DNA of 64,000 bases, from assembly GCA_964017045.1 (NCBI GenBank), contig OZ024808.1:2319666-2383665 (forward strand). Reading direction: 5' to 3'. Below the pieces are notes generated by a model that was not told where the DNA came from, searched no databases, and saw only the letters and a list, made by a program, of their open reading frames with translations. Every line of letters begins with the position of its first letter. Within the stretch, counting starts at the first letter, position 1. The translations under genes were made by a program, and so were the position numbers. Below, piece by piece: positions 7,101 through 56,100 of the stretch. The DNA comes from Omphiscola glabra (lineage: Eukaryota; Mollusca; Gastropoda; Lymnaeidae).

Positions 7101-10100
7101 ACATAGAACTGACCTGTACAACATTTCACAGAACAAAGCAAGCAGGGCCACTTGTAAGGGGGAATCTGTGTATGCATAGACTCTGTAGTTGGTCTCCACA
7201 ACAATGAAGCCAGGTCTGTGCGTGTCAATGTTACTTTTAGAGAGTCCCGACACAATGTTAACAGCAAGTCTTGTTGGGTAGTAGCGATGAGATTTACGCT
7301 GCATAATAACAAATGTCAGTTTGAAGAACTCAACTCAAAGAAAGATGTTAATCGTTTTTCATTATTCAAGAAACTTGATTTTAGGACAGATTTCACTATC
7401 AATTCAAGAAAAAAGGTGGAAAATTACTTTCTGTCAAAATTGTGTATTCAACATTTTAACATTAATTTAAATAAAAAAATAAAAAAAAGAAATATTACTG
7501 TTTTTTAAGACATTTGTCTGTAACAATTAAAATATATCTTGGTGAATTCAATTTTGAACTATGAAAATAAAGGTTATAAAATACTTTAAATTCCTTAAAC
7601 TGTTTTATTTTCTTGTACTAACTTTTCTTTGGTAGACAAGGCCAAACTCTCGCAAGTGTTGCAGAAAACGCAGCTGGTTTTCGCTCATCCCTTCTGTACA
7701 GTAGTCCTAAAAGTTCACAACAGAATAAATTAAGTCTATAGATGACTTGAGTTTAAAAGTTTTCTTCATTTATTACAAGTTACATTTTAATAATTTAAAG
7801 GGAGATTTAATTTCCTTCTTTGAAAATATTTGTAAAAGTTTGCTCATTTAATTTTATGAGTTTTTATAATTTAGTGTACCCTTAATAATAAAGTTACAAA
7901 ACAAACGGCTGTCATTTTCAACTATGAAGAAGGGTATTTGTAAGTAAAGACATGTTGTCGTAAATCTATATATCACATTTTGGTAAAGTAATGCTTGCTG
8001 AAAGAAACCCTTAAAATGCCATCAATTTTATCCTTACCTTTCCTAGTGTTGAAAAGCTCAATTGGAAGAGGAAAGCCAGACACTCCACCAAGTCCATGCC
8101 CCTAGACTGAAAGAGAGAGAAGAATTTAAGTTAATACAGCATGTATCATTGAATTTTCTTCCACAATATATTGACAAGAGAAGAGTTCCTGTGTTTTGAA
8201 CCTATGGTCGGACTAATGCTGCTTTTAGGGATTATTGTTCAAAGTAAATCTGATTAACTAAACACTTCTGGAACCTCACCACTGATTAACTAAACACTTC
8301 TGGGACCTCACCAGCCAATAACCAAATCTGATTAACTAAACACTTCTGGGACCTCACCAGCCAATAACCAAATCTGATTAACTAAACACTTCTGGGACCT
8401 CACCAGCCAATAACCAGATCTGATTAACTAAACTCTTCTGGGACCTAAACAGTAGAATAATAGTTCTGCCAAAGAAACAATAGGTTGAACAAAGATTACT
8501 TAGAAATGTATTCAAGTTTACAATTTCTAACAACCACCACAGCCTTTCAATAAAAATTTAATGATTTGTTTAAATTGTCTATTTGGTTAAAGTGTGGTAA
8601 AGTTGTGAATACAAACAAACAAAAGCTACACACCTGCACAGTGTCAAGATATTGTAGAAGAAAAAACCAAACTTGAGAAGATGTGTCCATCAATAAAAAC
8701 TGAAACCCTTCAGCTGTGATGGAAGGCTCGCCATCATCACTAAATGATACAAGAGTATCAGACTTAAATCACGAAGCAAAACAATCCAAATTTTTTAAAA
8801 ATCATCTCAGGGTGAATAGATTAATAATTCTTATTTTACACATTTTATTACAGTTATGCATCATATGAATAAAGAAGCTACAATAACATAAGCCAGATCC
8901 TACCCACAAGATTATTCTTTCAAAAATTTTAATTTTTAATGCATGAATGTAGGCTTCAGTAACCTGATGACATTCAACTCAAATAAAAAAAACTCAAAGA
9001 TGATTGCCAATCCTTGATCTCAATGATACATCAAAATAGCTGATATCTTTATATCTGTAATTTCTTTACAAGCAAAGTTGCTGACATCCGCGCTGAACTA
9101 TTGTCTTGACATATCCCCCCTAGATTTGCCTCCTTTTTCTTGTGTTAGCTCACATTTCGAAATTTTTAAACCGGTTTCAGAACAAGAGGTCAAAAGTACT
9201 ATTCTGAAGTCTACGCCTACATCATGTTCTTTGGACCCCATCCCCACCCCCCTGTTGGTTGAGTCGTTAGATCATGCTCCCAACAATAACCCACATAGTC
9301 AATGAAAGCTTGTCGTCTGGCACTGTTCCCTCTATGTGTAAGTCAGCTGTCATCAAACCATTGCTTAAGAAGCCTGGTCTGGATGAAAACAATTTAAAAA
9401 ACTATAGACCAGTATCTAACTTATCATTTTTATCTAAAGTCATTGAAAATATAGTTCTAAAACAACTTTTTGCTTATTTAAACGACAACTCTCTTCTCAG
9501 TCCTAATCAATCACCCTATAGACCTGTCCATAGCACTGAGACAGCTCTCTTGAGAGTAACCAATGACCTCTTGCTCGCATTGGACAGCGGTGATGAAACC
9601 CTTTACAAAACCCTTGAAAATTACTTTGGCATTTCTGGTTCAGTTTTGGCTCGGTTTAGGTCCTACCTCTCCAATAGAACGCTGTCGATGGCTGTCTCTC
9701 CGGCAGTGCTGACTTGGTGTATGGAGTGCCACAGGGGTCCGTTTTAGGCCCGGTTCTATTTACAATGTATACCAGGCCACTGCTCCTTTTGCTAGAGAGG
9801 CATGCTGTGGAGAGCCAGTCATTCGCAGATGACACGCAGCTATAAATTCATACACATCCCTCTCTTGTCAATTCCGCTGTCCGGACTTTGCAGGAGAGCA
9901 TTGCTGATGTCAAGTCATGGATGACACTCAGCAAGTTGAAACTTAACGATGACAAAACGGATGCACTTCTTATTCACAATTGCAAATCATCCTCTAAATC
10001 AGCTCTCCCCACATCATTTCAAGTAGGTAACTCAGACATACAGTTTAGTTTACCACTAGGAATCTTGGTTATTTTCTGTCTCACAACTTGTCTCTTGATA

Positions 10101-12922
10101 ATCATATATCCCACATTTGTCGCTCTGCATACACGGCCATCCATCAGATCAGCTCAATCCGCCACTACCTCACAGCTAGTGCAACAAAAACCCTAGTCTA
10201 TGTTCTTGTTCTCTCTCGTCTTGACTATTCCAACTCTCTTCTGTCAGGTTCACCAAAACACTTCTTAGAAAAACTACAAAAGGTTCAAAACTCAGCTGCT
10301 AGGCTAGTTTTAAAGGCAAAAAACGTGATCACCTCACACCACTACTTCATTCACTTCATCGGCTACCTGTACAAGCACGGATTGACTATAAACTCTCTGT
10401 TCTCTGCCACAACTTTTTCTCGAATTCCTGCCCTTCCTATCTAATCGAACTTCTCTCTGTCTATTTACCCCTTCGACAGCTTCGCTCTTCCACAGACGGG
10501 CATAGTGTTTCTGTCCCCAAGACTCGCACAAAAACATACGGTGAAAGATCTTTCTCTTACTGTGCCCCCAAACAATGGAATTCTCTTCCACTACACATCC
10601 GCAATATATCAACTATCACAGCCTTCAAAACTGCACTCAAAACACATCTCTTTAAACTCTACTACCCCGACTGATTCCCCACATCTGACCGATAAACGCT
10701 GCTGCTGGCCGCCGTCCATGGCTTGTCATGTAAAAGTTCTGGTGTGGATGAGGTGAATATGCATTAGATTTTGTTTTGTCTCTATACATCTGTTCTTTAT
10801 TATATATATGTATTTTATGTTAATATCACCATTATGTCTCTTTTTTAATATTTTTATGTACAGCGCTGTGAGCCTAGCCCTAGGCTGGGGTACCACGCTA
10901 TATAAGACAACAAATAATAATAATAATAATAATATAAGTAACAATATAACAGATGGATATAAAGAACAGGATCTACAGAACGACTTACACCCTCATGAGT
11001 CCACTGTGCAACAGTACATCAGTTATGTCTTTATTGACTCCATCTGTTCCTTCATTGGAGCCAACCATGAAGTGAAGTACACACTGCAATGACCATCAAT
11101 AAAATTGATATCCTCAATACAACAAAACAAAATATTTGTGAATACCGATTATGTGAAGTTGTCTCAATAAAAGAAGTGATTGTGGTATGTGCATAGACAC
11201 TAGAGCCAGCAAATAAATTAATAATGCAGGTCCCAAATATTTCATCCAAATTTTGGGGGTTTTATCAGACTTCCTTCAGACTTTGTCTTATTGACTTTTG
11301 TTAACAAACAGAGATGGTTAGTCACCTACCTCCCACCTTTCTAAGGCATACTTGTCTAGAAAAAGGATGTCTTTAGCATATTTATCTGGAGTCAGGTCTT
11401 TACTACCAATCCAAGAGCTTCCACTGAAATTAAAACAGACTAATAATTTACAAAATATTAAGGCACAGGCTATGATTAAAACACACTTTTTCTATACCTA
11501 AAGCCTGCCAATAAAACATTATTTCTGTATCTAAAGCCTGCTAATAACACACTATTTCTGTAACTAAAGCTTGCTAATAACCCAACAAGTATTGGGATGG
11601 AAACAAGCACATTTTTGAGATGTTGAATGTGCCGATGTCAACTCGGTTATATTATTTTTATTGAAAAGAAGTTAAGATTTAAGCTATAGCAAAATACGAG
11701 TTAAACTTGTTTACCACTACCATCACATGACACAATGGATAAGACTCTCTGTCATTGATGTGTTCAAACTTTTATATCAAAGTAAATAAACATAAACAAT
11801 CTTATTTGAGTGGCTCAGAAAATAATTATATCAAAGTAAATAAACATAAACAATCTTATTTGAGTAGCTCAGAAAATAATTACCCTCCTAAAAGAGCTGT
11901 AACCAGGTTAGTCCTGAACACATGGTTCAACAGCCAGCCTGGCATACCACCAGGAAGAGGCTGTTCATACCAGACTCTCAACTCCACTAAAGCAGCTGCT
12001 GCTGCAAACTGCTCCCTGAAATATTAATTACCGGTATTTGAAATATTGGCACTTGTCGGTTTCATATATTTTGATGAGTTGTACTAACTGCCATTTTATA
12101 TTTCATAATTATAATTTTTTTTAAAAGCTTATCCTAACAAAACTTCCTAGCACCATAAACTACTTTTCTATTATTGTAACAGACATAGCATTATTTTTTC
12201 TTGTTTTCTTTTATCACTCATAAAGCTACAATATCTGGATGTCTTACTCGGGCGGTGCTGTGCTCCACTGCTGTACAACTGCCTGGGCTACGGCTTGCTC
12301 CACATATAGAATACGCATAACATAGTGACGAGATAACTCTGGGATATCTCTGAAATAAAAATTAATACATTATACATTGAAAAAATTGGTTCATTTTCTT
12401 TCTAAGTAATTAACTACTGTTTAAAAATTATTAATAGACCAAGAGGACAAAATTGTTATTGCTTTGTTGACTAGCTTTTCCCAAGTTTTTGTTTTAGATA
12501 GGTAAACACAAAATTATAATAAAATAAGGCTCTGCTATTTTATTTGTATTGTGAAATAAATTTACTGAAGACAAAGCTCAAATCGGCCTATGATTTGTAT
12601 GGATATGATGCAATAATATTAGCCCGGTGTAGTGCGAGGCGAGAGGTATAATATAAATTAAAGTTAAAATAATTTATTCAGAATACTTGTCAATTGTCAA
12701 TAGTGACAATTCAATTGTCAAAATATAGTCAATTTGAATAGTGACAATTTTGAAAACGGACTCAATTCATTAAATAAAGTTGTAAGAAAATTACCGAAAA
12801 ACTGCTAAGCAGGTAGCTGGGTGACAGTACAAACGATCTAGAACAGTAGGTGGCAAAGTCCGAAGATATGAATGTAAATCTTTACAAACAATTTTTTTCA
12901 TCGTGGAAGTATTGGAAGCCAT
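4186..12922 (-). CDS. GTF2H4: General transcription factor IIH subunit 4 (p52/Tfb2), complete, 13 exons
   Basis: p52 of the TFIIH core, which anchors and stimulates the XPB helicase/translocase in promoter opening and nucleotide excision repair (nucleus). Exons in transcript order: 12922-12795, 12349-12248, 12015-11884, 11423-11330, 11083-10989, 8739-8634, 8106-8038, 7706-7623, 7298-7114, 6183-6105, 5885-5838, 5392-5252, 4299-4186. All phases match; 1377 nt, 458 aa, against 462 in human. Landmarks: [16 protein letters not shown] near the N-terminus, [99 protein letters not shown], and the C-terminal DIGVLVWE...[11 protein letters not shown] tail that binds p8. The start is the ATG at 12922 reading [20 protein letters not shown]. 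Several introns carry minisatellites, and the 8740-10988 intron holds a decayed LINE in antisense. Confidence 0.97.
4687..5240. repeat. AT-rich minisatellite in the last GTF2H4 intron
   Basis: About 18 degenerate units of roughly 27 bp (core GAACAAGTTGATACAAAAAA) from 4687 to 5060. They are followed by units of about 20 bp (core TTGACACAAATTAACACAAC) that reach the donor of the exon ending at 5252. The minus-strand open frames across it are by-products of the repeat. Confidence 0.9.
6698..7075. repeat. 46-bp minisatellite in a GTF2H4 intron
   Basis: About 8 near-identical 46-bp units (core GAGATAATCCTTTCAAACTG then ATTAAAACAAATGATGGACC), just inside the donor of the exon 7114-7298. The last units at the 7030-7075 end have diverged most. 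Confidence 0.95.
8240..8445. repeat. 46-bp minisatellite, about 4 copies, in a GTF2H4 intron
   Basis: Repeated core TCTGATTAACTAAACACTTC followed by TGGGACCTCACCAGCCAATA. It lies between the exons 8038-8106 and 8634-8739. Confidence 0.9.
9060..10935 (+). mobile_element. Decayed non-LTR retrotransposon (L2/CR1-group LINE) 3' half
   Basis: Reverse-transcriptase remnants in three forward frames, broken by frameshifts and stops. In order: [13 protein letters not shown] and LDPIPTPLL at 9150-9260; [23 protein letters not shown] and HSTETALL at 9274-9560; the catalytic FADDTQL at about 9823-9843, followed at once by a stop; then [13 protein letters not shown] and [16 protein letters not shown] at about 10210-10320, and [23 protein letters not shown] sequence at 10537-10590. 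The 3' end is marked by AGCCTAGCCCTAGGCTGGGG at about 10870 and a tail of (AAT) repeats at 10912-10935. The [24 protein letters not shown] set is typical of the L2/CR1 group. It lies inside a GTF2H4 intron in antisense and is inactive. Confidence 0.9.
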
Positions 12923-17700: not shown

Positions 17701-20700
17701 ATTTCAGGTCATGAAGAATGTTCGTCCTGGAATGTTTGAATACCAAGCAGAGAGGTTAATTTTCTTTGTTTCATGTTAAATAATCCAAAATTTTTAATAT
17801 GTTTAAAGATCTGTTTTCACACCAGTACTATTTCAAACCATATTTCATGACAATTGTTTTTGTTAATGTAATGTTCTATTCTTCATATCTTATTTTATGT
17901 TTTATCATATCATATTTGATTACCTACTTCCTTGAGATTTGATTTCTTTAAAAATTAACAATGATAATAAATAAGCAATTTTTTTTCTTTCGACAGTATA
18001 TTTCATCATTATTGTCGTTACACTGGCGGTCTTCGAATGCTCTCCTACACATGCATTTGTGGGAGGTATAAAAATGATGTCCAATTTTTCTTATTTTTTT
18101 TATAGAAACCTACTTAGTCTCATTTGCTAGACATTTGCAAACACTTTATCCAGCCCATTATTTATGAATGTGCTTTTGTGCATTGTTCATAGGACATAAA
18201 TAATCAAACAAACAAATGTAAATTAATAAAATCTGCAATTTCAAAGGGAGACAATATTGATTGTATTCAGGTAGGGTTATCTAATTAGTATTGCATTAGT
18301 TTTCTTTGGTAGTTAACTAAATATAATCTAAGTTCACTCACGGTGGGAAGGGTCATGGGCATTAGAAGAATTCACTATTTAATTTCTGGTTTAATAAGTA
18401 ATGTAGCATTATTTTTTTATTTGAATACTTGTAGAACGGTAATTGTTTTTTATAAAATATCGGTAAATAATTTTTTTTTATATACAGTTTTCTTTGATAT
18501 TAATTTTACTTTCAGTGGTCACAATGGATCGGTCCTACATTATGGCCATGCCGGGGCTCCCAACTCAAAAGAAATTCAAAATGGTGACATGTGGTAAATT
18601 TCAGTTCTTTCTGTATAATTAATTAATGGTCAGTTCCTTAAATAAATATTTCGCATAAAACAGAAAATGTAGGAAACGTTTTCATCTAAGCATTTCAGGC
18701 TCTTCTGAGATCTGGGATCATTTCATTTCTGAGTTGGGACTATGCTACATTCAGATATTTTTATGACAATGCTAAAAACACTTCCCTGTTACTTGATGAC
18801 GTGAACAAAGTTACAGATATTAAGGTTTATATCTATTCCCCCAGTTTGTTTGACATGGGTGGAGAGTACTACTGCTACGCCTCAGACATCACATGTTCCT
18901 TCCCAGCCAATGGAAAGTTTACAGCTGATCAGAAGGCCATTTATGAAGCTGTACTTGCCTCCAGTCGGGCTGTCATGGCTGCTATAAAACCAGGTCTGAA
19001 ATTAAATCAGAAAATTAAATATTTATCAAATTATTTATGGTGTTTTTGTTAAATATAATTATTTATTACACAGATACTTAATGTTGTACTAGCAAAGCAA
19101 TTAAAAATATTGTCTGATGATGCCAACCATGTAATTTCACAGAATTGGTCAGATACATCAGACAATGTACATAGTAATGATTGTTTGACTGTTATTTTAT
19201 CCAGGAGTTCGCTGGTTGGACATGCATCTACTGGCAGAACGTGTGCTTCTGGAGCACCTCGTAAGGCTTGGAATTCTTCAAGGTGACCTTGAGGAAATGA
19301 TGCGAGTGAGGCTGGCCGCTGTCTTTATGCCTCATGGTCTCGGACATTTTCTTGGTGTGGACACACATGATTGTGGTGGTTACCCCCAGGTAAGTTGTGG
19401 TCCAATGTTGACAGGTAATAAATACATGGCTAATTTCTACAGCTAATGCACTGGTCAATGTCCAAAGATAATCCACTGTGTTAACTCCACAAATAATTCA
19501 CTGGCTAAGGTCCACGGATAATGCACTGGCCAAGGTCCACAGATAATGCACTGATCAACGTTCACAGATAATGCACTGATTATTGTTCACAGATAATGCA
19601 CTGATCAATGTTCACAGATAATGCACTGATCAATGTTCACAGATAATGCACTGATCAACATTCACAGATAAAGCACTGATCCATTTTCACAGATAATGCT
19701 CTGGCTGATCTACTCTTGTCCTTGATCAGTAAAGTAAAGGTGTTACAGTATGTTAGCAGTTGCATATATGTCCAAGTCTTTTTCATATTTCAAGCCACCT
19801 AGGATTAGTTCAATCCTAGCTGTTTGGGATTAGTTCAAGCCTAGCTGTTTGGGATTAGTTCAATCCTAGCTGTTTGGGATTAGTTCAATCCTAGCTGTTT
19901 GGGATTAGTTCAAGCCTAGCTGTTTGGGATTAGTTCAAGCCTAGCTGTTTGGGATTAGTTCAAGCCTAGCTGTTTGGGATTAGTTCAAGCCTAGCTGTTT
20001 GGGATTAGTTCAAGCCTAGCTGTTTGGGATTAGTTCAAGCCTAGCTGTTTGGGATTAGTTCAAGCCTAGCTGTTTGGGATTAGTTCAATCCTAGCTGTTT
20101 GGGATTAGTTCAAGCCTAGCTGTTTGGGATTAGTTCAAGCCTAGCTGTTTGGGATTAGTTCAATCCTAGCTGTTTGGGATTAGTTCAAGCCTAGCTGTTT
20201 GGGATTAGTTCAAGCCTAGCTGTTTGGGATTAGTTCAATCCTAGCTGTTTGGGATTAGTTCAATCCTAGCTGTTTGGGATTAGTTCAAGCCTAGCTGTTT
20301 GGGATTAGTTCAAGCCTAGCTGTTTGGGATTAGTTCAAGCCTAGCTGTTTGGGATTAGTTCAAGCCTAGCTGTTTGGGATTAGTTCAAGCCTAGCTGTTT
20401 GGGATTAGTTCAAGCCTAGCTTTTTGGGATTAGTTCAAGCCTAGCTGTTTGGGATTAGTTCAATCCTAGCTGTTTGGGATTAGTTCAAGCCTAGCTGTTT
20501 GGGATTAGTTCAAGCCTAGCTGTTTGGGATTAGTTCAATCATAGCTGTTTGGGATTAGTTCAAGCCTAGCTGTTTGGGATTAGTTCAATCCTAGCTGTTT
20601 GGGATTAGTTTAAGCCTAGCTTTTGCTCACTATGGATGTGCACTTTAATGTTTTTCCTTTTTTTTTTGTTTTTTTGTAAATTCTCTTTTAAAATTTAAAT

Positions 20701-21739
20701 TTAACCATTACATTAATTACAAGTTTAAGTCATTTTTAATAAAAATGAATATATAATTTGGATAAGAGGAATATTTTTATTTTATCATTTGAACAGGGAA
20801 CATCGCGGATTGATGAGCCAGGCTTGAGATCTCTACGCACGACACGTACACTGGAACCACGTATGGTTATCACAATAGAACCAGGATGCTACTTCATCGA
20901 TATTGTAAGTTCACGCTTAGTTCGTATAGATTGGAGAATACAAATAATACAATGAAAAGTGGAGATTTTATGTTTGTTTGTTTGTTTGTTTGTTTGTTTG
21001 TTAGAAACACTTTAGATCATTTATTTTTCAACTCTTATCATCCTTTAGTTACTGGACAGAGCCTTGGAAGATGAGCGCCATCAACGTTTTATTGTTCCTG
21101 AAGCTTTGAGGCGATTCAGAGGATTTGGCGGGGTAATTGTTGGTGTCCCTGTGGAATTATGTTGTGATTGCTTGCTGTAAAGTTATGAGTGCCGACATTC
21201 TGAATATATTTGTCTTTTTTTTTTTCAATCAACCTTCATTCTTTTATCTCAACTTATCAGTGTATGTGAATCAAAACATCTGGTCATCAGTGTATGTGAA
21301 TCTAATGTGAATCAAAAAGTCTGGTCTTCGGTTGTTGTTTTACTCCAAAGACATTTTTAATGTACAGTTTGTTTGCACACTCTCCAAAGTTGTCACTCCC
21401 ATGAGGACTGACCTACAGGTTACGTACTACCTGTCCAATGTTGTGTGACTCCTATGAGTACTGACCTGCAGGCTAAGTACTACCTGTCCAATGTTGTGTG
21501 ACTCCTATGAGTACTGACCTACAGGTTAAGTACTACCTGTCCAATGTTGTGTGACTCCTATGAGTACTGACCTGCATATTGTATATTTATAGGTGAGAAT
21601 TGAGGACGACATTGCAGTAACTGACAACGGTTTGGAGCTGCTCACGACGGTGCCCAGAGCAGTGGAGGAAATTGAAAGAGTTATGGCTGAAGGGAGACAA
21701 TCACACCAGCCTTTGCCTCAGTCCAGGACTTGCTGTTGA
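14796..21739 (+). CDS. PEPD: Xaa-Pro dipeptidase (prolidase), complete, 16 exons
   Basis: Cytosolic Mn-dependent dipeptidase that splits Xaa-Pro dipeptides in collagen and proline recycling (M24 pita-bread fold). Exons: 14796-14815, 15075-15258, 15385-15512, 15773-15836, 16003-16050, 16511-16572, 16840-16884, 17136-17211, 17708-17754, 17997-18065, 18516-18593, 18845-18993, 19205-19389, 20797-20904, 21049-21132, 21593-21739. All phases agree; 1494 nt, 497 aa (human 493). All five metal ligands are present: D277 and D288 in [17 protein letters not shown]371 in [10 protein letters not shown]413 in VITIEPG, and E453 in GGVRIEDD. The start MASGKTQ leads directly into the conserved N-terminal domain (THVIPMELF). 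Intron 13 carries an array of 25-bp units over 0.8 kb long, and intron 15 a 53-bp array. The C-terminal tail ends SRTCC and is not conserved with vertebrates. Confidence 0.98.
19445..19700. repeat. 25-bp tandem repeat in PEPD intron 13 (first array)
   Basis: About 10 units of core TTCACAGATAATGCACTGAT plus CAATG, more diverged at the left end. It lies just after the exon 13 donor. Confidence 0.9.
19801..20623. repeat. 25-bp minisatellite in PEPD intron 13 (second array)
   Basis: About 33 units of GGGATTAGTTCAAGCCTAGC plus TGTTT. Units come in two main forms that differ at one base (CAAGCC or CAATCC) and are interspersed rather than blocked. Three other single-base variants are seen. Confidence 0.97.
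21393..21580. repeat. 53-bp tandem repeat before the last PEPD exon
   Basis: About 3.5 copies of a unit with TGAGTACTGACCTGCAGG and TACTACCTGTCCAATGTTGT. Each full unit has a decoy acceptor-like CTACAGG or CTGCAGG. The array ends about 12 bp before the real acceptor at 21592 and contains no exon sequence. Confidence 0.88.
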
Positions 21740-23084
21740 ACGAACCAAGGAAAATTTAAAGGGTCATGGGTTAATGCCCTTCCTTCTTTCTCTGATTAGG
21801 TTCAGTGAAATATTAATGTATTTTTTGCTAGAACTGCTGGTCATTAACGAATTGATTAAAAAAAATAAATAGAGCAATTTCTTTAGAGCTACATTTTCCC
21901 TCTCATTGTGCTCAGTAAAAAAAATAAAACATTTTCAATTTGCTAGAACTGCTGGTAATTAAATAAATGAAAATAAAATAAATATAGCAATGATAGCATA
22001 TGCAATCATGACGGAGAATACAATCCAATAGATTTGTTGTTAAGATTATGATTTAATGTTTAATAAAGTTTTTACAATTTTATATCTCACAGAAAATAAA
22101 ATATTTTTTTGGTAATGGAAAGTTCTTAGTTTGATATTAACTTATCATAAAATAATAATATGGCATTTTAAAGGGAATTAACTTATCATAAAATAGCAAT
22201 ATGAAATTTTAAAGGGAAATTCTAGTTTCTTGTTGTTTTTTTTTTTTCAAAAATAATCTTTTATTCTATGGAAGTAATTTCAATGAGGACACTAATCAGT
22301 ATTAAAAGTGTTTCCCCAAAGTTTTACAGAAATATTTATAAAGTGATTGTTTTTGTTAACCATTCCAAGAATTTGTTTTTAAAATGAGCCCCCTCTCTTG
22401 CTTTATCATTTGCTTTAAAACAAAACTATTTCTTTTTTTATATTTAACCAGTCTTTTCTTTGCTAGATGATTTATCTTCATTTGTACGTAACCTGGGGTC
22501 ATTTTTATGATGTACCATATTCCTTATATCTAGAAGTGGACCAAAGATTTACTTATTTGTAATTCAGAGGCGTAGTCATTGATTTAAAATTTATAATTTT
22601 CTTGACCTGCTCCTACCTAGTCATTAATGATGAATGTAATATTAATGACCAACTTGGCTACTTATATCTATAACCTCACAAGTCAAGGATATTGCCTTAC
22701 AACCGACAGCAACTCAGGGGGGAGTGACAGCCGAGTGACAGCTGAGTGACAGCCGATCCACAAAGGAATTTATTCGCCCTAAAAGAATATCATGCTCAGC
22801 CCATCTGTAGTTTGCCATTGGTGTAAATGGTGGTAGACGTATAATTGATGTGATGTATATGAGATGTACTTATGAAGTATACGTGATACATACATGTAGG
22901 ACGATATGTAATGTTTACATAATGTTTTTGGGTGTATACCTGCTCATATATCCTGATTCTAATTTAAATGAACATGTCTTCAAGATTGAACCTACGTACG
23001 CCACATAATCCAATTATTTGGGATTGAATAAACATAATTAACTCCCCTGGCTTCCATTGTTTTCTTGTGCATTTGTATTTGGAT

Positions 23085-24060
23085 TCAATTGGTTGTCTAT
23101 GTTTGGATTACATTGGTTGTCTATGTTTGGATTAGATTGGTTGTCTATGTTTGGATTACATTGGTTGTCTATGTTTGGATTAGATTGGTTGTCTATGTTT
23201 GGATTACATTGGTTGTCTATGTTTGGATTACATTGGTTGTCTATGTTTGGATTACATTGTTTGTCTATGTTTGGATTACATTGGTTGTCTATGTTTAGAT
23301 TACATTGGTTGTCTATGTTTGGATTACATTGGTTGTCTATGTTTGGATTACATTGGTTGTCTATGTTTAGATTACATTGGTTGTCTATGTTTAGATTACA
23401 TTGGTTGTCTATGTTTGGATTACATTGGTTGTCTATGTTTGGATTACATTGGTTGTCTATGTTTGGATTACATTGGTTGTCTATGTTTGGATTACATTGG
23501 TTGTCTATGTTTAGATTACATTGGTTGTCTATGTTTGGATTACATTGGTTGTCTATGTTTGGATTACATTGGTTGTCTATGTTTGGATTAGACTGGTTGT
23601 CTATGTTTGGATTACATTGGTTGTCTATGTTTGGATTACATTGGTTGTCTATGTTTGGATTAGATTGGTTGTCTATGTTTGGATTACATTGGTTGTCTAT
23701 GTTTAGATTAGATTGGTTGTCTATGTTTGGATTAGATTGGTTGTCTATGTTTGGATTACATTGGTTGTCTATGTTTAGATTACATTGGTTGTCTATGTTT
23801 GGATTACATTGGTTGTCTATGTTTAGATTACATTGGTTGTCTATGTTTAGATTACATTGGTTGTCTATGTTTGGATTACATTGGTTGTCTATGTTTGGAT
23901 TACATTGGTTGTCTATGTTTAGATTACATTGGTTGTCTATGTTTAGATTACATTGGTTGTCTATGTTTGGATTACATTGGTTGTCTATGTTTGGATTACA
24001 TTGGTTGTCTATGTTTGGATTAGATTGGTTGTCTATGTTTGGATTACATTGGTTGTCTAT
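23085..24060. repeat. 24-bp minisatellite, about 40 units
   Basis: Unit GGTTGTCTATGTTTGGATTA plus CATT. Variation is limited mainly to TTTGG or TTTAG and ATTACA or ATTAGA, plus two or three single changes. The period divides by three and the unit has no forward stop, so all three + frames stay open over most of it. The 342-codon frame from 23057 (repeating HWLSMFGL) is therefore not evidence of a gene. Confidence 0.97.
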
Positions 24061-24267
24061 TTTTTTTATTAGAGTGCAGCTGTAAACTGTGAATTTTGTT
24101 GGAGACCACCCACATTAGACTATCCTCCCCTCTCTTTATGTGTTCAGAATATATAACAGACTATTATAAATACAGACTATTATATTCAAAAGAAACCCTA
24201 CGCATAAAACGAATGTAATTTTAAATGTTTTAATAACATTCTGGCGTCCGTCCCTCACAATGTGACG

Positions 24268-30435: not shown

Positions 30436-33400
30436 ATGGTGCAGGTGGAGACCAATGACAGAAGCAGTATTGCAGGTCCGTGAGCCATTCGTAGTGCTAT
30501 CTAAATCATTTATAATCTGTAGAGTTGCACTGCATACCGGTACTAAAAGAGATTACCTGTCATTTTACAGACACTGTGACAATTGTAAGTTTTAAAAAAA
30601 AACTTAAACAACTAAATATATTTCTGTGGAAATAGCCAAGTTACCAACTTGTTAATGTTGTTTAATGCAGCTATTCCCAAACTTTTAAGTTTGGTGGACC
30701 ACCAGTGGACACGTTTTGAAACTTCCCCAGGGACCGGTGGACACATTTTGAAATTGCGCCAGAGACCGGTGGCAGATTTATTAATTACATTTTCTTTTTA
30801 TTCGACCATAAATATTGATGTCGTGCGGAACGGCAACGTAAGTCTCGCGGACCAGCGCCGGTCCGTGGACCACAATTTGAGTTTTGAGAAACACTGGTTT
30901 AAAGCATTATTAATTATTATCATTCAATATGATTATTGAAATATGAAATGGACTTAACACATAGATCAAATAGCTGACATAAAAACGTTTTTGATTCTTG
31001 CTTATACTTCCTCCATCTGGTGTACAGATTTATTGAGTGATCCCATGGACAGCCAGAGCCCAGGTCCATCGCCTGCTCCACATTCTAAACTCTTGAAAAC
31101 ATCCAGCAACGAGGGGAAGCAACTTATCAGCTATCATATCACACCCAAACCTCCACCGGAACCACTCCCATTCCCGCTGGGCCTATTGGTCACGGTAGGT
31201 AGTAACAAAGGATGTAGTCATTGGCGACCATTAGAGTTCATTAGACTGGTGGTGATGGGGGCCATTAATGGCCGTCAGATTGGTGGTGATAGGGTCTGTG
31301 ATGTACATTAGGCTGGTGGTAGTGATGTGGTCAATGAAGGACGCTAGAATTGCGATGTTGACAATGATGGATACTAGATGGATTATTTAACTAGTGGATC
31401 AATTGATGACTCTAGGTAAAAAAGGTGAGTCAACTTGGCATGATTCGTAATGCAACACTTTGCGACTTCAAGTATAATAATTTATGACAAGATTCAACTC
31501 CATGTGTTAATTAAACCATAGATTGCTCACAAACTCCACTATTTATCCCCTAGATTTGTTGTGGTGGAAACATGAAATATCTTGTGTTCCCCACTCTGAT
31601 GGCCGTCAGCCTGGGTCTGTTTCTTGCCTTCAGCAGGGCCGTCTCTTCCACAACAGCACAGATGGGTGCGTTTGCATTGTTTGTTGTTTGTCAGTGATGA
31701 CTTTCTTGTTATAGTCGAGCTATTAGAATACTTTGCAAGTTGTTCAACTTGTTGGTGTCACATGTTTGTGGCTTTTGAAACAATTTTGCCATGTTTCTTG
31801 TGGAAAAAACCCAGCAAGTTAATTTGCTGTCATCTTAACAGTATGCAAACAAACTAGACCACTCTTACACTACTCCAGCTATTTCAGCATTTATATTACA
31901 GTCAGTATCATGAATTTAACCCCTTCTATTCCATCATGAAGGTCACAGTCAGTATCACTACTTTAACCCCTTCAATTCCAACATATAGGTTACTTCAGTA
32001 TCAATACTTTAACCCCTTCTATTCCATCATTGAAGGTCACAGTCAGTATCTCTACCTTAACCCCTTCAATTCCAACATATAGGTTATGTCAGTATCAATA
32101 CTTTAACCCCTTCTATTCCAACACATAGGTTACATCAGTATTATGACTTTAACCCTTTCTGTTCAAATGTGAAAGTCACAGTCAGTATCAACACTTTAAC
32201 CCCTTCTATTCCAACATTTAGGTTACAGCCAATATCAGAACAGTCGAGAGTTGAGTGAGGATGACCCCAGCCTACCTAAGAGTCATCTGTTCTTTGGCTC
32301 CATGCTGAAAGACCATGCTGCCATGTTTCATGCCAGGCCGCAGCTGTTTCAGCAGCAGCTGCTCATGCAACAGCAGCAGCAGCAGCCGATTCCAAGTGGG
32401 GATGTGTCAGAGAGCTGTGACTGTTCACGGTGTGAGGTGGATAACTCTTTCCTTGGGGTATGTATAAGTTAGGGGGGATATGTCTATGTTAGTGGGGATA
32501 TGTCCATTTTAGTGGGGATATGTCCATGTTAGTGGGGATATGTCCATGTTAGTGGGGATATGTCCATGTTAGTGGGGATATGTCCATGTTAGTGGGGATA
32601 TGTCCATGTTAGTGGGGATATGTCCATGTTAGTGGGGATATGTCCATGTTAGTGGGGATATGTCCATGTTAGTGGGGATATGTCCATGTTAGTGGGGATA
32701 TGTCCATGTTAGTATGTTTATCATTGTGATGGTACACCCAAATCTTGTTTATGTCCATGTTTGTGTGGTATCTCAATGTTTTTTGGGTATGTCGATGTAT
32801 TGGGGGTATGTCAATGTATTGGGGGGTATGTCAATGTATTGGGGGTATGTCAATGTATTGGGGGTATGTCAATGTATTGGGGGTATGTCAATGGTTGTGG
32901 GAATATATCCACATTTGTTTGGTATTTTCATGCGTGTGGAATGAGATGTGTGGAATATATATGACTTGTGGGAGCTATCACAATGTGTATTACTATCACC
33001 ATGTGTATTACTATCACAATGTGTATTACTATCACAGTGTGTATTACTATAAAGTTTGCCATTTTGAGAAGATGGACTCAATCAGTAAACAAATTTCTAA
33101 AAAAAAATATTCTCTAGGATAATACGAAGAACTACCAGAGGTTAGTCAAACACAGCTTCCAACACTTCTACGGCAAGCCTGAGCTGGCCATTCAGATTGA
33201 AGCGTTCGTTCCTGGGAAAAAGAAAATGTGGGAGATGAACCCCGTGTTCTACATCTCACCTGATAAAATCTGTGCAGACGATGGCAACCCGTTGGCAGTC
33301 ATTATTGTCCACAGTCATCACCGCCACATGATTGAAAGAAATGTTGTGCGAGACACCTGGGGGAGCGTGGCTAAAGGGAGAACTTGGCCTCGGAGACAGG

Positions 33401-35442
33401 TGAGTTTACGTTTGGACTGGTTAGTGTCTGTTTAGACGGGTTAGTTTGTTTGGAAAGGTAGTTGTATGTTTAGACAGGTTGGTGTTTGTTTAGACAGGTT
33501 GGTGTATGCTTAGACAGGTTGGTGAAGCATCTAATCTATTGCAACTCTTTTTGTTTGTTACCTGGGGGTAGATGGTGAAGCATCTAATCTATTGCAGCTC
33601 TTTTTGTTTGTTACCTGGGGTAGATGGTGAAGCATCTAATCTATTGCAACTCTTTTGTTTGTTACCTGGGGGTAGATGGTGAAGCATCTAATCTATTGCA
33701 ACTCTTTTGTTTGTTACCTGGGGTAGATGGTGGCAGAGGTGAGGCTCATCTTTGTCTTAGAAGTCAGTGAGGACCCCATTGATAATGACTTGGCAACAAA
33801 GGAATCTGATAAATATGCAGACATTGTCCTTGTGGATGTACAGGTGAGTTGTGGATATACAGGTGAGTTGTGGATGTATAGGTGAGTTGTGGATGTACAG
33901 GTGAGTTGTGGATGTACAGGTGAGAAGACAAGAGAGATCTACGCTTGATATCAAGTCATGTCAGTTACCTTTCCATATCTGTATTATTCAATGGATGATA
34001 AAATGGCGGACCCTATTACAGGGTAAAATCAAATCTGAAAAAAGGTTGGATTTAATTTTTCTCACAGGAAACAAGTCAGCCGGCGTCCAGGAAAGTGTTG
34101 TCTGGGTTTAAGTGGGTCTTACAGCACTGCACAGGTACTCAGTACATCATTAAGGTTAGTACATCATTAAGATCAGTATATCATTAAGGCTGGTAAAATA
34201 CCAAGGTCATACATCATACGGTGGCATTGAAGTAGGCACATCACTTAGATCATCATCATTAACATAGTTCCTTCTCATAAAATTTAAAGACCATTTGACT
34301 ACTTCATCAAGTTTTCTCTTGTCAGCTTTAATCTTCTCATTGGCAGGTTGAAGAGGACACATTTTTAGATGTGCCCCTCCTACTTAGTGTTTTAGCCAAT
34401 CAGGACTTGACAAATATGATATTTGGACCAATCTTATTTGCTGAAACGGTCCAAAGGCTGACAGAGGACAACAAAGTTCTGGTATCAAAACAAGCTTATT
34501 TCCCCGAGTGGTACCCCCCATATGCAAAGGTTAGAAAGTCATCATATTCAAATGTTCAAGTTCATTAAGGTCATCTTTATCATTCTTTGTAAGGAAATAT
34601 TCTCAAATGAAAAACAACTAATGCTTTAACTTATATTATCATAAAAAAAAACATAAAATTATCATTATAGCTCCTGCTAGAACTGTTATGTTAACACATG
34701 TTCTTTATGCCTTGTGACATCTATCTGTCATAATGTTACTGTTGGTCATGTGACATCTATCTGTCATTATGTTACTGTTGGTCATGTGACATCTATCTGT
34801 CATTATGTTACTGTTGGTCATGTGACATCTATCTGTCATTATGTTACTGTTGGTCATGTGACATCTATCTGTCATTATGTTACTGTTGATCATGTGACAT
34901 CTATCTGTCATTATGTTACTGTTGATCATGTGACATCTATCTGACATTACTATACTATGCCTTGTGACATCTATCTGTCATCATTAGGGTACTTTCTATG
35001 CCTTGTGACATCTATCTGACAGGCTACTGTCTGTCTTGCGACATCTATCTGCCATTAGTGTACTGTCTATGCCTTGTGACATCTATCTGTCACCATTAAT
35101 GTACTATCTATGCCTTATGACATTATCTGTCATTATTAGGGTACTGTCTATGCCTTGCCAACATCACTAGCCAAGCGGCTGTTGACAGCAGCTGAATATC
35201 TGCCGTACGTTAGCACAGAAGATGCTTTCATCACTGGAATATTGGCTAAAGTCTTTGATGCTCGACACATCAACATCCCCGAGCACCTTTACGACAGGAG
35301 GGTCAACAACAAACCTGAGTTATGTGACTTTGTTTATAGGAAGAAAATGGTGGCCCACAAGGTCAACTCAGCCCTCGCCCGCGGCTTGTGGAGGAGAATG
35401 GAAAAAGCTGAAATGTGTGGATTGTATCCAGCAGAGGAGTAG
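30436..35442 (+). CDS. GT31 family glycosyltransferase (beta-1,3-galactosyltransferase-like), type II membrane protein, 9 exons
   Basis: Golgi enzyme expected to add a beta-1,3-linked sugar to a glycan; donor and acceptor cannot be read from sequence. Exons: 30436-30475, 31028-31194, 31554-31665, 32222-32457, 33118-33399, 33727-33843, 34068-34154, 34347-34529, 35140-35442. Phases all agree; 508 aa. Seen: cytosolic tail of about 75 residues, signal anchor at about 77-95 (KYLVFPTLMAVSLGLFLAF), a stem with a Gln run (QQQQQQ) and CDCSRCE, then the GT31 domain: VIIVHSHHRHMIERNVVRDTWGS, VRLIFVLEVSEDP, IIKVEEDTFLDVPLL, YPPYAKGTVYALP and YVSTEDAFITG. Odd: the usual DDD (DxD) metal motif is EED at 349-351, and the normal NLT..K segment is missing. 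Exon 1 (ATG at 30436) is chosen only from phase and reading frame; the alternative start is the ATG at 31045. Six consecutive introns carry arrays copied from exon edges. Confidence 0.85.
30668..30896. mobile_element. hAT-type miniature element, 229 bp
   Basis: Ends CAGCTATTCCCAAACTTTTA and AGTTTTGAGAAACACTG form an imperfect inverted repeat. A 7 of 8 target duplication (GTTTAATG at 30660-30667, GTTTAAAG at 30897-30904) flanks it. It sits in intron 1 of the GT31 gene. Internal GGACCGGTGGACAC and GCCGGTCCGTGGACC segments are subterminal repeats. Confidence 0.8.
31897..32245. repeat. 46-47-bp array containing the acceptor and start of GT31 exon 4
   Basis: About 7 units of core CTTTAACCCCTTCTATTCCA then ACATATAGGTTACATCAGTATC. 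The last unit is the real junction: TTTAG|GTTACAGCCAATATC at 32217-32236. At least three earlier units keep an AG|GTTA decoy. Confidence 0.88.
32455..32712. repeat. 20-bp array starting at the GT31 exon 4 donor
   Basis: About 12 units of GATATGTCCATGTTAGTGGG. The donor itself (GGG|GTATGTATAAGTTAGGGG at 32455-32472) reads as a diverged first unit. Confidence 0.85.
32780..33050. repeat. Two further short arrays in GT31 intron 4
   Basis: Five to six units of GTATGTCAATGTATTGGGG (about 19-20 bp) at 32797-32895, and about five units of TATCACAATGTGTATTAC (18 bp) at 32975-33050. Neither touches an exon. Confidence 0.85.
33392..33515. repeat. About 20-bp degenerate array starting on the GT31 exon 5 donor
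   Basis: The exon end GGAGACAG|GTGAGTTTACG is the first unit. It is followed by diverged units ending in three clear copies of TTTAGACAGGTTGGTG or CTTAGACAGGTTGGTG, each with an AGACAG|GT decoy donor. Confidence 0.75.
33520..33741. repeat. 52-bp array containing the GT31 exon 6 acceptor
   Basis: Four units (core GATGGTGAAGCATCTAATCT, then TTTGTTTGTTACCTGGGGGTA). The decoy acceptors GTAG|ATGGTG end at 33571, 33623 and 33675; the real one ends at 33726. Exon 6 starts ATGGTGGCAG. Only the last copy reads through; an upstream acceptor hits TAG in frame. Confidence 0.93.
33830..33925. repeat. 19-bp array formed from the end of GT31 exon 6 and its donor
   Basis: The exon end TTGTGGATGTACAG|GTGAG is repeated at exact 19-bp steps. 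Donor positions are after 33843 (real), 33862, 33881, 33900 and 33919. The last 14 coding bases belong to the array. Confidence 0.95.
34140..34192. repeat. 17-bp array formed from the end of GT31 exon 7
   Basis: AGTACATCATTAAG|GTT occurs at the exon end (encodes QYIIK), again immediately after as AGTACATCATTAAGATC, and a third time as AGTATATCATTAAGGCT. Confidence 0.85.
34703..35157. repeat. Array filling GT31 intron 8 and including the start of exon 9
   Basis: Left part: about 7 regular 36-bp units (core CATGTGACATCTATCTGTCA). Right part: five diverged units of 35-46 bp that contain copies of the first 18 coding bases of exon 9 (GGTACTGTCTATGCCTTG). Decoy acceptors end at 34987, 35022 and 35058; the real one ends at 35139. 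Confidence 0.93.
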
Positions 35443-38819: not shown

Positions 38820-41800
38820 CTACATGAAAGTTGTGTCATCGAAGCCAGACTTGTTCTTTGATCGAGCTTCAAACAGTTCACGGACTAGAGTAGACTTTTC
38901 CTTTTCCAACTGACTGATTACATCTGTTTTCTGTCCAATTTCCTAAAAAAAAAAAAAAAAAAGTTATACAATAATTATTTCTGATGAAGAACATCAAAGG
39001 TGAAAATAAACGGCCAAACATTATGGTGCTGATCAGGGGAAAAAATCATTTAGCCTAAGTGTAAGTAAATATTTAAAAACATTGATATATATATAAATAA
39101 ACCTACCAGACCTGACTTACTGAATCAACTATGTGTAAACGGACAAACTTAATATAAACTATTGAAAATAAATATTACTTTCTTTGCTTTCTATTCTTGA
39201 TTTACAATGTCCAATTGCTAAAGTGTAAATGTAATTTATTCTAATAAATGAAATGTTGGGAAATCTTTTGCAATTTTTATGTTATACACACTAGAAATTT
39301 AACAACCAGTGATCCCAATAAAAGGTGTTTACTGTAATAAAAGTGAAAAAATTAATTAAATTGTTAGTTTTTTTAATTTAAAAGGAAGATATCTCGAATA
39401 ATCCCTGACTAAATCTTCATTTCAATTATTATTATTATTATTAGGTGGTTTTATATAGCACACTACCCCAGCCAAGAACTAGGCTCACTGCGCTTCATAT
39501 AAAAATTAGAAATTACAGAAACATATACATTTAAAAACAGCAATTGGTGAAAAGCTTGACCTCACCCTCCAACGTTCTATCTACCCCTGAGAATGAGTCG
39601 GTATAGAACAGTTTGAAGAGATGGGCTTGAGGGCAGTTTTGAAGGCTATGATGGTCCTTATATTGCGGATGTGTAACGGGAGAGAATTCCATTGTATTGG
39701 GACACAGAAAGATCGTTCACCATATGTTTTAGTGCGTGTTCTCTTAACAGAAATAATACGTGCGTCTGCGAAGGAACGACGCTTTTAAAGTTTTATTATT
39801 GAAGTTTAGTTTAGACTCATTTCTTGGTATTTTTAAATACTATAAAAACCTGATATGAATATGTTCCTTCAGGAAAACCTTTTGGTTATTAGTAGAATTC
39901 AAAGGAATACTAATTTATTCTTACCTCAAGCAATCGCCTGTTATGTTCTTTGATTCTGTGCGATGTTCTACTGTCCCCTGGCAGTACGTTGGATGAAGCA
40001 GGCGGCATAACAAGATTCATATGTATAGGAAATCCCTGAAAGTGACAACATACGAAACTGGAAACAGAAACTATGAAGTGTTTTTAAACTTCTTCAATTG
40101 AAAGATCCCCTTCAGTCCTGTACCCTTTAGTTCTGTAACACTTGAAACTAAAGCACAAAGTTGTCCAAGAGCAAAAAACTTCTGCTAATCACTATTTTTT
40201 TGCATTTTTAACATCAATTTTATACATCATTGTTTGTGCTATGCAAATGACTTGTATATACTTTATGTACATAGTGAAAGCGGGATATTAGATAGGCAGA
40301 ATATTACAGTGCAGATTAGGCTTTAAGATTAAAATTTATTATTTTTTTTCAAAGAGGTCATGGTTATAAGTAAGCACATACATCTTTATCACTGAGGACG
40401 GTTGATTTCTGATGTCATTGGATGATGCGCAATTTCTCTAACAATTCACAATTGAAACTTGTTAAAAAATGTAGCACAATGAGTTGATACGTGAAAACTG
40501 TTACCCGATGCTTGGTCCTCCTTACCTTGTCAGAGCTCTCCACTAATGCATGTAAATGTTGATTCACTTCAGCTATTCTTGCACGCTGAAAATTCATTCT
40601 TTCTTGATGTGCCTCCACTGAATTGTCCTGTACAGAATATTTGTAAAATTTTCAAACAATATGAATTTCATTCCTGACTTTTTTTCTCTCATTAATGAAT
40701 GAGTTACATGGTAATGAAGTTTGGTTTATATACCCTACTGACCCTTGGCCTTGTCAGTAGTCCTCATTCCAGTGAAAAGTGACAAATTGCTTGATAAACC
40801 CAGTGACTGACCAGTGTCTAAACAGCACCCCAGGCAAAGCCTATACTAAAATAATCATTCTTCTTTACACTGTTGGCAGGCGACCTTGGATTGCATCAGG
40901 GCAAGTGTTTAATAAGCGGCCCCTAACTCTACATCACCCGTAAATATACAGGGTATATCATCCTAGTAAAGGCAGACCCTTAGAGACAAGATGAGTATAT
41001 CGATGCTTAGTACTAGACCAGGGGTGGGCAAACTTTTTGTGCGGAGGGCCACATTGACAAAGGTAAAGCTATTGGGGGGCAGCATGTATATTATGTCCAA
41101 TTTTTAAATATCGATAAACATTTCCCTATATTAAAATTGGTAGTTTCGCATTTTAGCATTACATGACAAAGGTCAAGGACTGTTTAAAAAAATAGAAAAT
41201 TAGAAAGAAACTTGATCAAAAATGTTTTAAAAATCATAACGGTGCATGAAATTCTGTAAAATTCAACAAAATAACTTAAAAACATCGTAATTTTTTTAAA
41301 TTTCTAAATGCCTTCGAGGGCCACATAATATCAGTTGCCGGGCCGCGCAGGGCCGCATGCGGCCCGCAGGATGTAGTTTGCCCACCCCTGTACTAGACAG
41401 AGCCCTCCACTAACTTACTACTAGATGGGGCCCTGCACTAACTTAGTACTCCATTGGACCCTCCAGAAATAGTTGTCAAATTCAATAACTTATTAAATGT
41501 CATATTTATTCCAAGAACTTAGCATTGTGTTAGTACCCTTTATATTACTGTGAGGGTTAGATATTTCTAAGACTTTTATTCATTTCTTTATATGCAGATT
41601 TTCTGTGTCTTTATTCATCTTTTATGCCATGTAATAAAGTACCTTTATATTAGAGCACAGATTGTCATTTTAGCCAGCACCCTTTTAATTATATTAGACC
41701 AGGAGCGTGTTCAACTTTCTTGAACACCAAAGAGTGCTGAACACATACAATACTAAAGACATTTTTGTCCCAATTAAATGCACAGTATAACGTATGCAAA

Positions 41801-53149: not shown

Positions 53150-56100
53150 ATGGCTGAAGAGATGGAGACAGCAGAAGGAGCTGAGCTATCATCACCAATG
53201 TCCTTCAACTCTCTTGTGGCCCCACAGCATGGTAAACTGGCAAATTTTGATGTTGAGAAAAAGATTGGAAAGGGCCAGTTCTCAGAGGTTTACAGAGCCA
53301 AGTATAAACAAAATGAAGGGATGCCTCTGGCCCTTAAAAAAGTCCAGGTAAAGAAGTCGTCTAACTGGCTTTAGTTTTCAATATCAATCATTTTTTTAAC
53401 ATAGACATTAGTTTTTAGCCATCTCATTGGTTTTCATGACTCAGTCTAATAATTCATTTTATTGTTGTGATTTAATTACCCACACTGAAATGATTGTAAA
53501 TTGTGTTACAGATTTATTGTTTTGATTTAATTACCCACACTGAAATGATTGTAAATTGTGTTACAGATTTATTGTTGTGATTTAATTACCCACACTGAAA
53601 TGATTGTAAATTGTGTTACAGATTTATTGTTGTGATTTAATTACCCACACTGCAATGATTGTAAATTGTGTTACAGATTTTTGAGATGATGGATGCCAAA
53701 GCCAGAAATGACTGCATGAAAGAAATAGACTTGCTGAAAGTAACTATTAGCATTAACATGTTGTTATGCTGGAATTTTCAATCTTGTTTTTTAAATTTGT
53801 ACTTTTGTTAAGCAAGTACAATATTTGTAGCAGTCAATGTTCTTGCTTATTTAATATATTTATTGTTTGATTTATATCTTAAGCTAGCACACACATTTTA
53901 AAAAATATATGTGTTGTTAGCAATGAGTTATTAAGCTTAAACTATCTGTATTGCTTTTAAGCAACTGGACCATCCAAATGTGATCAAATACCTGGACTCA
54001 TTTATTGAGAATAATGAACTGAACATAGTCCTGGAGTTGGCTGATGCAGGAGACCTGCAGAGGATGATAAGGGTGAGTCTGTCAAGGTTCATTTTTTCCC
54101 TTTCAATCTAATACAAAATCATGCAAAAGTTTCCTCTGTACTTTAAAAGTCAATCACTTTTCAATTTTAAGTAAATTGAAAAATTGCAAGGAAATTAAAT
54201 AAATATTTATATGTATGCACCTTTATTGATTAACTTGTTCATCTGCATTGTATTTCACTATTTTTTTTATATTACCAAAATAACCATTGCTATACGATAG
54301 TCAGGAATTCTTTTATTTTTTTGTTGGGAAAAGTAGGGAATTTAGTTTTTTTAAAAGAGTGGGAACCGTGAAGTTAACCTTGAATCTATATTATTAAGTG
54401 CTTGTGAAATTGATTGTTGATTAATTTTATGAATCTGTTTCAGCACTTCAAAAAGCAGTGTCGACTTATCCCTGAGAAGACTATATGGAAATATTTTGTC
54501 CAAATTTGTAGTGCTTTGGATCATATGCACTCAAAGAGGATTATGCACAGAGGTTAGGATTGTCTAATTCTACACTTTTTTGTTTAGCTTATTTTAAAAT
54601 TATTTAAGCTTGTGTCAAATAGTAATGTTTCTATAAAAATGTGCTCATTTAAAGAAAATATTTTTATTTTCCTCTTTTCAACCATGATGTCATCAGCCAT
54701 TTTTATTTCATAAGTCTGTATAAACTTCTTTCCTTTTGATGACCTGGTCATCTTTTCTGAAACAAATTAGATATCAAACCTGCCAATGTTTTCATCACTG
54801 CCCAAGGGATTGTTAAGCTGGGTGACCTTGGCCTTGGGAGGTTTTTCAGTTCCAAAACTACAGCCGCCATGTCTTTGGGTTTGTATTTTTAAAATAATTT
54901 TCTAATATCTTATTTAAGATTATTCTTAAAGTTAGAGATTTAAAAGTGTGATGAAAAAAATGATCTGTTTGTTCTCAAAGCATGTATTTATTTATTTTTA
55001 CATGTGTATATTTGTATTGACATTGAATGAGTTGCTTCTCATCACATTGAATGAGTGTCTTCTCATCACATTTTAGTTGGGACACCTTACTACATGTCAC
55101 CTGAGAGAATCCATGAGAAGGCTTATAATTTCAAGTCTGATATTTGGTCCTTGGGATGTCTGCTGTATGAGGTAATAACTCTTGTCTCTACCTGTCAGGA
55201 TATCCTCAATTCATTTCCAATTTTTTGTTGTTTAATTACATATAGTGCATTTAGTATTCATTATTAACTAAGGCTGGAATACATCAAAGAGAATGTTTTA
55301 AATTTTAGGACAATTTACCTTAGATTGGAACAAAAACGAAATGTTTAAAATGGTATAAGACAAGAATGTAGATTCTGCAATGCTTCTAACCAATATAAGA
55401 GGTATTTTAAACTTATTCACCAATGCTTTATTTCTATTTGTTGAAAAGATAACATTTTCTAACCAATCAATAAAATAAAATCTGTGTCCCATGAACATGA
55501 AGATATATTGGCACTATATATACATAAAATGTATACCCTGTGTTTTTTTGTTTTTTTTGAAAATGTATTGCATTCAGAGTATATTTGTCCACTGAAGTCA
55601 CCAAAAAAAGAATTTAGTGCTCAATTTAGAAAACTGATGTTGAAATTAAATGGACTTCTGGCATTTACAATGTTTTTTTGCAACTGTATTTTTAAAAAAA
55701 ATCTATTGCTTGAAGCATTGTAGGCTGTAGATGTTGTAAGCAAATTCATTATTGCTCTTCAAATTTGACATTACTTTCACCATCTTTCATATGTGGAATC
55801 TCTGAGTTTCAAACTACTGCTAATAAGTTATGCATTTTACTTCTCCAATTTATTTGTGTTCAGATTGTATTGTATGTATAAATAAGGCGCTTAGTAATTC
55901 TTTTTATCACCATGACGTCAATACAATCTACATTCCATGTTTTACAGATGACTTCAATTCAATCTCTTTTATGTTTTACAGATGACATCAATACAATCTC
56001 TATTATGTTTTACAAATAACTTCAATTCAATCTCTATTATGTTTTACAGATGACATCAATACAATCTCTATTATGTTTTATAGATGACATCAATACAATC

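Follow-up and report, generated by a model that had tools for sequence, protein, structure and literature searches.

Minisatellites over the exon edges of a GT31 gene in the snail Omphiscola glabra: a probable set of molluscan 'mirages'

Why should tandem repeats lie across the edges of exons, and at several exons of one gene? The question is raised by a GT31 gene of the freshwater snail Omphiscola glabra, located in a stretch of 64,000 nucleotides that was analysed at its full length and is called the window here. A preliminary description of this DNA placed minisatellites at seven splice junctions of the gene, held that random placement would not hit so many, and drew a connection with AG|GT-containing duplications and intron gain. 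Do the arrays cross the junctions? Is the exon the source of the repeated unit? And is anything more than chance and splicing needed to account for them? The gene is as follows (forward strand throughout).

30436-35442, forward strand: GT31 (Galactosyl_T) gene with a nine-exon coding sequence, from the open joined frame, Pfam and the L. stagnalis alignment
30436-30475, 31028-31194, 31554-31665, 32222-32457, 33118-33399, forward strand: GT31 exons 1 to 5
33727-33843, 34068-34154, 34347-34529, 35140-35442, forward strand: GT31 exons 6 to 9

That this is a real gene, as first described, is borne out. The nine exons join into a single open frame of 508 codons, the predicted protein carries the Pfam domain Galactosyl_T (PF01762; E 3.4e-30, 105.7 bits against a curated cut-off of 23), and it matches the Lymnaea stagnalis protein P0001 end to end with 96% identity and the same exon joins. 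Because the L. stagnalis protein aligns over the full length, all eight introns are supported at the protein level. Identity to other snails is 67% in Physella, 69% in Bulinus and 47% in Aplysia. Exon bounds obtained by tblastn differ from these by a few codons at most, and the same eight introns come out of a splice search that starts from the tblastn ranges. Arrays make up half of the intron sequence (1741 of 3480 bases); with the extra copies collapsed, introns 3 to 8 measure 260, 251, 55, 148, 158 and 203 bases.

Array extents were taken from Tandem Repeats Finder (TRF), and the in-phase match of array copies to the exon was tested against 46 control exon edges. Set against the exon table, the TRF extents show tandem arrays across six of the 16 splice junctions of the gene, with 6-18 coding bases in each unit. 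These six, and the array near the exon 4 donor, are listed from TRF without strand.

31896-32237: 46-bp array over the exon 4 acceptor (exon start 32222), 16 exonic bases, GYSQYQ codons
32468-32713: 20-bp array near the exon 4 donor, beginning 10 bases into intron 4
33394-33524: 20-bp array over the exon 5 donor (exon end 33399), 6 exonic bases, AGACAG|GT
33520-33732: 52-bp array over the exon 6 acceptor (exon start 33727), 6 exonic bases
33830-33924: 19-bp array over the exon 6 donor (exon end 33843), 14 exonic bases
34139-34189: 17-bp array over the exon 7 donor (exon end 34154), 16 exonic bases
34713-35157: compound 36/41-bp array over the exon 9 acceptor (exon start 35140), 18 exonic bases

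Six of the seven junctions originally named therefore hold, and in those six the unit does contain both the splice site and coding bases; the case at the exon 4 donor is weak, its array offering three in-phase exonic bases, a match equalled by one of the 46 controls, and a crossing is not established there. The arrays had also been described as beginning or ending on the junction. By their TRF extents, they run past it instead. In the in-phase test, each of the six crossing arrays has at least one copy that beats all 46 control edges. At the exon 4 acceptor this is true of five of the six phased copies, two of them over 16 bases, and at the exon 5 donor the full 6-base match is present in two of four phased copies, with no control as good (0/46). 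One of three matches at the exon 6 acceptor is in phase and the other two are one base off (controls 0/46). The exon 9 acceptor array is the most heterogeneous in phase: its 18 exonic bases are found in the exon-proximal copies, two of 11 copies match the exon in phase (controls as good, 0/46), some are a few bases off, and the distal part is without the exonic piece. A looser search, for the best 16-base match anywhere in the array, separates the four longer GT31 cases from all 46 controls, together with two cases from other genes that are listed below (the NEK7 exon 7 array and the duplication at the INPP5-like acceptor). The two 6-base cases, at the exon 5 donor and the exon 6 acceptor, are detected by the in-phase test only, and neither search cleanly separates the GT31 exon 4 donor or NEK7 exon 2.

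The units were also said to be independent of one another. This stands for the crossing arrays, which are unrelated, but not for the exon 4 donor array: among 36 pairwise comparisons of nine of the ten GT31 units, one pair is related at the 0.02 level, and it consists of that array and its neighbour in the same intron 4. In intron 5, which is nearly all array, the exon 5 donor array adjoins the exon 6 acceptor array, and the two are unrelated to each other.

Are such arrays confined to GT31? For four other genes, junctions were taken from orthologues (PEPD, 14 introns; NEK7, 7; SAPCD, 5; GTF2H4, 12), with the splice sites of SAPCD introns 1 and 2, GTF2H4 intron 9 and PEPD introns 3 and 7 set by hand from the sequence; COP1 and an EGF-like gene were left out of the junction analysis. 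A further gene, at the end of the window, is presumably INPP5-like, a name based on a 5-phosphatase motif. The arrays at junctions of NEK7 and of this gene, again from TRF, are these (no strand is given for the NEK7 arrays).

53458-53680: NEK7 55-bp array extending to the exon 2 acceptor (exon start 53677), 4 exonic bases, marginal
55912-56201: NEK7 34-bp array over the exon 7 acceptor (exon start 56188), 14 exonic bases, MAALQ codons
63171-63258, minus-strand gene: INPP5-like 44-bp duplication over the acceptor (exon start 63183), 13 exonic bases
63889-64000, minus-strand gene: INPP5-like 50-bp array on the donor side of that intron, truncated by the window end

In NEK7 the crossing at exon 7 is firm and the one at exon 2 marginal, two of the 46 control edges being equally good in the in-phase test. 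No control is as good as the INPP5-like acceptor duplication (0/46), and both edges of that one intron are inside arrays; at the donor, whose exon is next to the window edge, a reading of the sequence alone gives about 41 exonic bases per unit. A comparison of TRF arrays with the orthologue-based junctions found no crossing arrays in PEPD or SAPCD.

Might the arrays be products of assembly, with repeats collapsed or mis-joined at intron ends? There is a precedent in amphioxus, where one of the boundary repeats known as 'mirage' minisatellites seems to have been misassembled in the draft sequence (PMC3087553). In the snail, however, substitutions distinguish the copies from one another, every exon is intact and in frame, and the arrays affect ten junctions in three genes (two of the ten being marginal or at the window edge) with units that differ in length and sequence. 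An artefact is extremely improbable.

The direction of copying can be read from the codons that the units have captured. These are GYSQYQ (exon 4), LVDVQ (exon 6), QYIIK (exon 7) and GTVYAL (exon 9) in GT31. Physella has GYSQYQ, LVDVQ, QYVIK and GNVYAM at the equivalent places; Bulinus keeps GYSQYQ and LVDVQ, its gene model being without exon 7 and the exon 9 start; and Aplysia has AYSQYQ, KYILK and GTMYVL, with a different sequence (LADFP) at the LVDVQ position. The MAALQ captured in NEK7 is invariant in all seven sequences compared, from this snail to human. As other snails or human have kept the captured codons, the exon copy is taken as the source in four GT31 units and in the NEK7 unit. 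For the two 6-base GT31 captures (RQ and MV), conservation says little on polarity. The proposal of local tandem duplication over exon edges is upheld by these captured pieces, as the residues that they encode are shared with other snails or, for NEK7, with human.

How could such duplications persist? Probably the arrays of the GT31 type are 'mirage' minisatellites, i.e. ordinary tandem duplications that straddle a junction and are tolerated through a splicing filter. Replication slippage or unequal exchange would produce duplications at a roughly uniform rate. Those within exons would be removed by selection because they break the frame; in the five genes, no TRF row scoring at least 60 falls entirely within coding exons. 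A founding duplication that by chance straddles an exon-intron junction would survive, since the spliceosome would take the exon-attached copy and discard the others with the intron, and it would then expand into the intron. The outcome would be longer introns with rows of decoy sites, without a new intron or a functional element. Crossing units hold the splice site and 4-18 coding bases, or about 41 in the one edge case. The number of such arrays in GT31 is attributable to its introns 3 to 8, which are short when collapsed (55-260 bases) and unusually array-rich.

Is chance sufficient to place so many founders on junctions? The test covers one window, with 46 introns, 92 junctions and 27 arrays (TRF period at least 10, score at least 60). 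Overlapping TRF rows were merged, one boundary was trimmed by hand, and a PEPD array of period 4 (20971-21002, score 64) was left out. The INPP5-like intron, cut by the window end, is excluded from the crossing counts; its two arrays would raise the total outside GT31. In the main null, the position of a founder unit is drawn at random within the intron after the extra copies have been collapsed. GT31 has six crossings among ten arrays against 2.2-3.0 expected, with p 0.005-0.026 by variant, for a gene chosen after the fact because it was striking. The four other genes have two of 17 (1.6-2.9 expected, p 0.48-0.83), and all genes together eight of 27 (3.8-5.9 expected, p 0.02-0.20). With full-length arrays placed in the introns as they are at present, p is 0.001 for GT31, 0.45 for the others and 0.006 for all genes, under a null that takes no account of the lengthening of introns by the arrays. 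GT31 exceeds chance only modestly. The argument that random placement would not hit seven junctions finds no support: half of the GT31 intron sequence is array, the founder null already expects two to three crossings in GT31, and the other genes have no excess.

A different explanation is that minisatellites of this snail are born preferentially at exon edges, perhaps because of breaks linked to transcription or because splice-site motifs give short matches for slippage. The GT31 crossings and the present-intron p values for GT31 and for all genes are in its favour, and so are the distances: array ends lie within 20 bases of a junction in 15 of 27 arrays, against 8.4-9.6 expected (p 0.003-0.014), and the distance rank over all arrays averages 0.37-0.42 instead of the expected 0.5 (p 0.010-0.078; KS p 0.011-0.057). 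For GT31 alone the mean rank is 0.36-0.41 (p 0.059-0.155). Twelve of the 17 arrays in the four other genes are within 50 bases of a junction against 6.6-7.2 expected (p 0.004-0.010), nine thresholds having been examined for the distance counts. Later insertions in mid-intron could be partly behind the low ranks. Several observations, however, go the other way. The crossing excess is absent from the four other genes, and their excess within 20 bases is weaker when introns over 600 bases after collapsing are removed (6 of 14 against 3.6-4.4, p 0.11-0.25). Nor does the exonic share of the unit point to breaks at the splice site: it ranges from 0.07 to 0.94 in the ten crossing cases and fits a uniform distribution (KS p 0.43, or 0.35 when NEK7 exon 2 and the INPP5-like donor are dropped), and the junction sits at no fixed place in the unit. 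A birth preference is unlikely as the explanation of these arrays. Some preference for exon edges, or a weaker attraction of arrays to junctions that gives no crossing excess outside GT31, may still exist.

If the arrays are mirage minisatellites, do splice-site sequences nonetheless have a part in their formation? The link with AG|GT that had been suggested finds no support, as this motif is present at four of ten crossed junctions and at 27 of 84 uncrossed ones (p 0.72). Together with the uniform exonic share, this speaks against breaks aimed at either the splice site or the AG|GT motif, with the power that ten cases give. A further suggestion was that the arrays stand on a route to intron gain. 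In the Rogers model, a tandem duplication containing AG|GT creates splice sites and a new intron, which then has a copy of the same exonic AG|GT segment at either end. The units at the exon 5, 6 and 7 donors and at the exon 4 acceptor of GT31 do contain AG|GT, and it has been proposed that amphioxus mirages supply the material from which new introns form (PMC3087553). But the arrays here are one-sided, each at a single intron edge; no intron lies between two copies of one unit, none of the introns examined here is bounded by two copies of an exonic AG|GT segment, the two arrays of intron 5 are unrelated, and the motif is unenriched at crossed junctions. It is extremely unlikely that the arrays represent intron gain of this kind.

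The decoy sites are of interest in their own right. They were scored with a matrix built from 47 introns, giving 40 scored sites for GT31 and NEK7 together; ten of the 40 belong to the GT31 exon 4 donor array, where crossing is not established. Ten of the 11 arrays scored, that array included, hold one or more GT or AG sites, in any phase, whose score reaches or exceeds the 10th percentile of real sites. In the GT31 exon 6 donor array there are four intronic decoy donors with GTGAG intact, which makes five donors in all; NEK7 exon 7 is preceded by six decoy acceptors, making seven acceptors, and three decoy acceptors at NEK7 exon 2 are within the score range of real sites. Could arrays of this kind be regulatory cassettes of alternative splice sites, retained to tune splicing? 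The full-strength decoys kept at GT31 exon 6 and NEK7 exon 7 would fit such a role, as would the nearest decoy acceptor of NEK7 exon 7, which is 36 bases upstream of the exon, in frame and free of stops (56152-56187), and whose use would insert 12 residues into the kinase. On the other hand, 39 of the 40 scored decoys would give a premature stop if used, and in the GT31 exon 7 donor array the decoy GT has been lost in the copies, so that neither of its two GTs scores (0/2). A regulatory function is highly unlikely. Since nearly every decoy leads to a premature stop, the normal protein needs the exon-attached copy, that is, the first donor or the last acceptor.

The closest known counterparts are the mirages of amphioxus, found in Adh3, troponin C, the globins BflGb6 and BflGb9, and PGBD5, where repeats span or overlap exon-intron boundaries at donors and acceptors, the units hold splice signals, and the normal mRNA is reportedly undisturbed (PMC3087553, PMC3902484). 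The snail arrays are similar in that a tandem repeat lies over the boundary with exon bases in its unit (the six of GT31, NEK7 and the INPP5-like gene) and in that their copies carry splice signals; they differ in being from a mollusc and in the presence of six crossing arrays in one gene. Crossing units are 17-55 bp in the snail, compared with 10-72 bp in amphioxus Adh3 and 150-160 bp in the globins (PMC3087553). By structure, the snail arrays are a well-formed set of mirage minisatellites, whose splicing behaviour is predicted from the DNA. Two other systems offer comparisons. In a potato RdRp gene, a duplication over an intron-exon boundary copied splice signals and made a new intron and a piece of exon (PMC4974935). 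The snail duplications also cross the boundary and copy splice signals, but they consist of many short copies and have only lengthened introns. Internal tandem repeats at exon-intron boundaries in human segmental duplications alter introns and the transcript structure of paralogs (PMC2812944). The snail repeats likewise modify introns at boundaries and are minisatellite-sized; unlike the human case, where transcripts change, the predicted joins match the L. stagnalis protein.

A literature search recognised no mollusc mirages among the matches listed, and in the cited parts of the amphioxus papers the name is used for cephalochordates only. The present arrays bring the category to a mollusc, and at high density. 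They also raise, in a common laboratory snail group, the question of whether intron growth is concentrated at the ends. A second question, for which GT31 exon 6 and NEK7 exon 7 are examples, is how the spliceosome picks the right site among near-identical neighbours. In the strongest form of the idea, lymnaeid exon edges would be true hot spots of minisatellite birth, introns would grow mainly from their ends as exon-intron borders are copied again and again, and the spliceosome would routinely find the exon-attached copy among equal decoys; this we consider unlikely.

Some further features of the other genes can be noted. In GTF2H4 intron 3, a 54-bp duplication (11772-11882) starts at intron base 2 and has no exonic match. 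Intron 5 of the same gene has reverse-transcriptase-like open stretches at 9027-10671, judged by eye to be a LINE remnant, and a fragment similar to them is found in SAPCD intron 5 (39534-39785). A canonical PEPD exon (17708-17754) is seemingly missing in the L. stagnalis protein P0021, which has the intron-like SFLRNVTEVIFFSFN there instead. A PEPD intron also contains a homogeneous array of 33 copies of 25 bp at 19802-20625, and downstream of it is a second homogeneous array, of 41 copies of 24 bp, at 23078-24064 (both from TRF).
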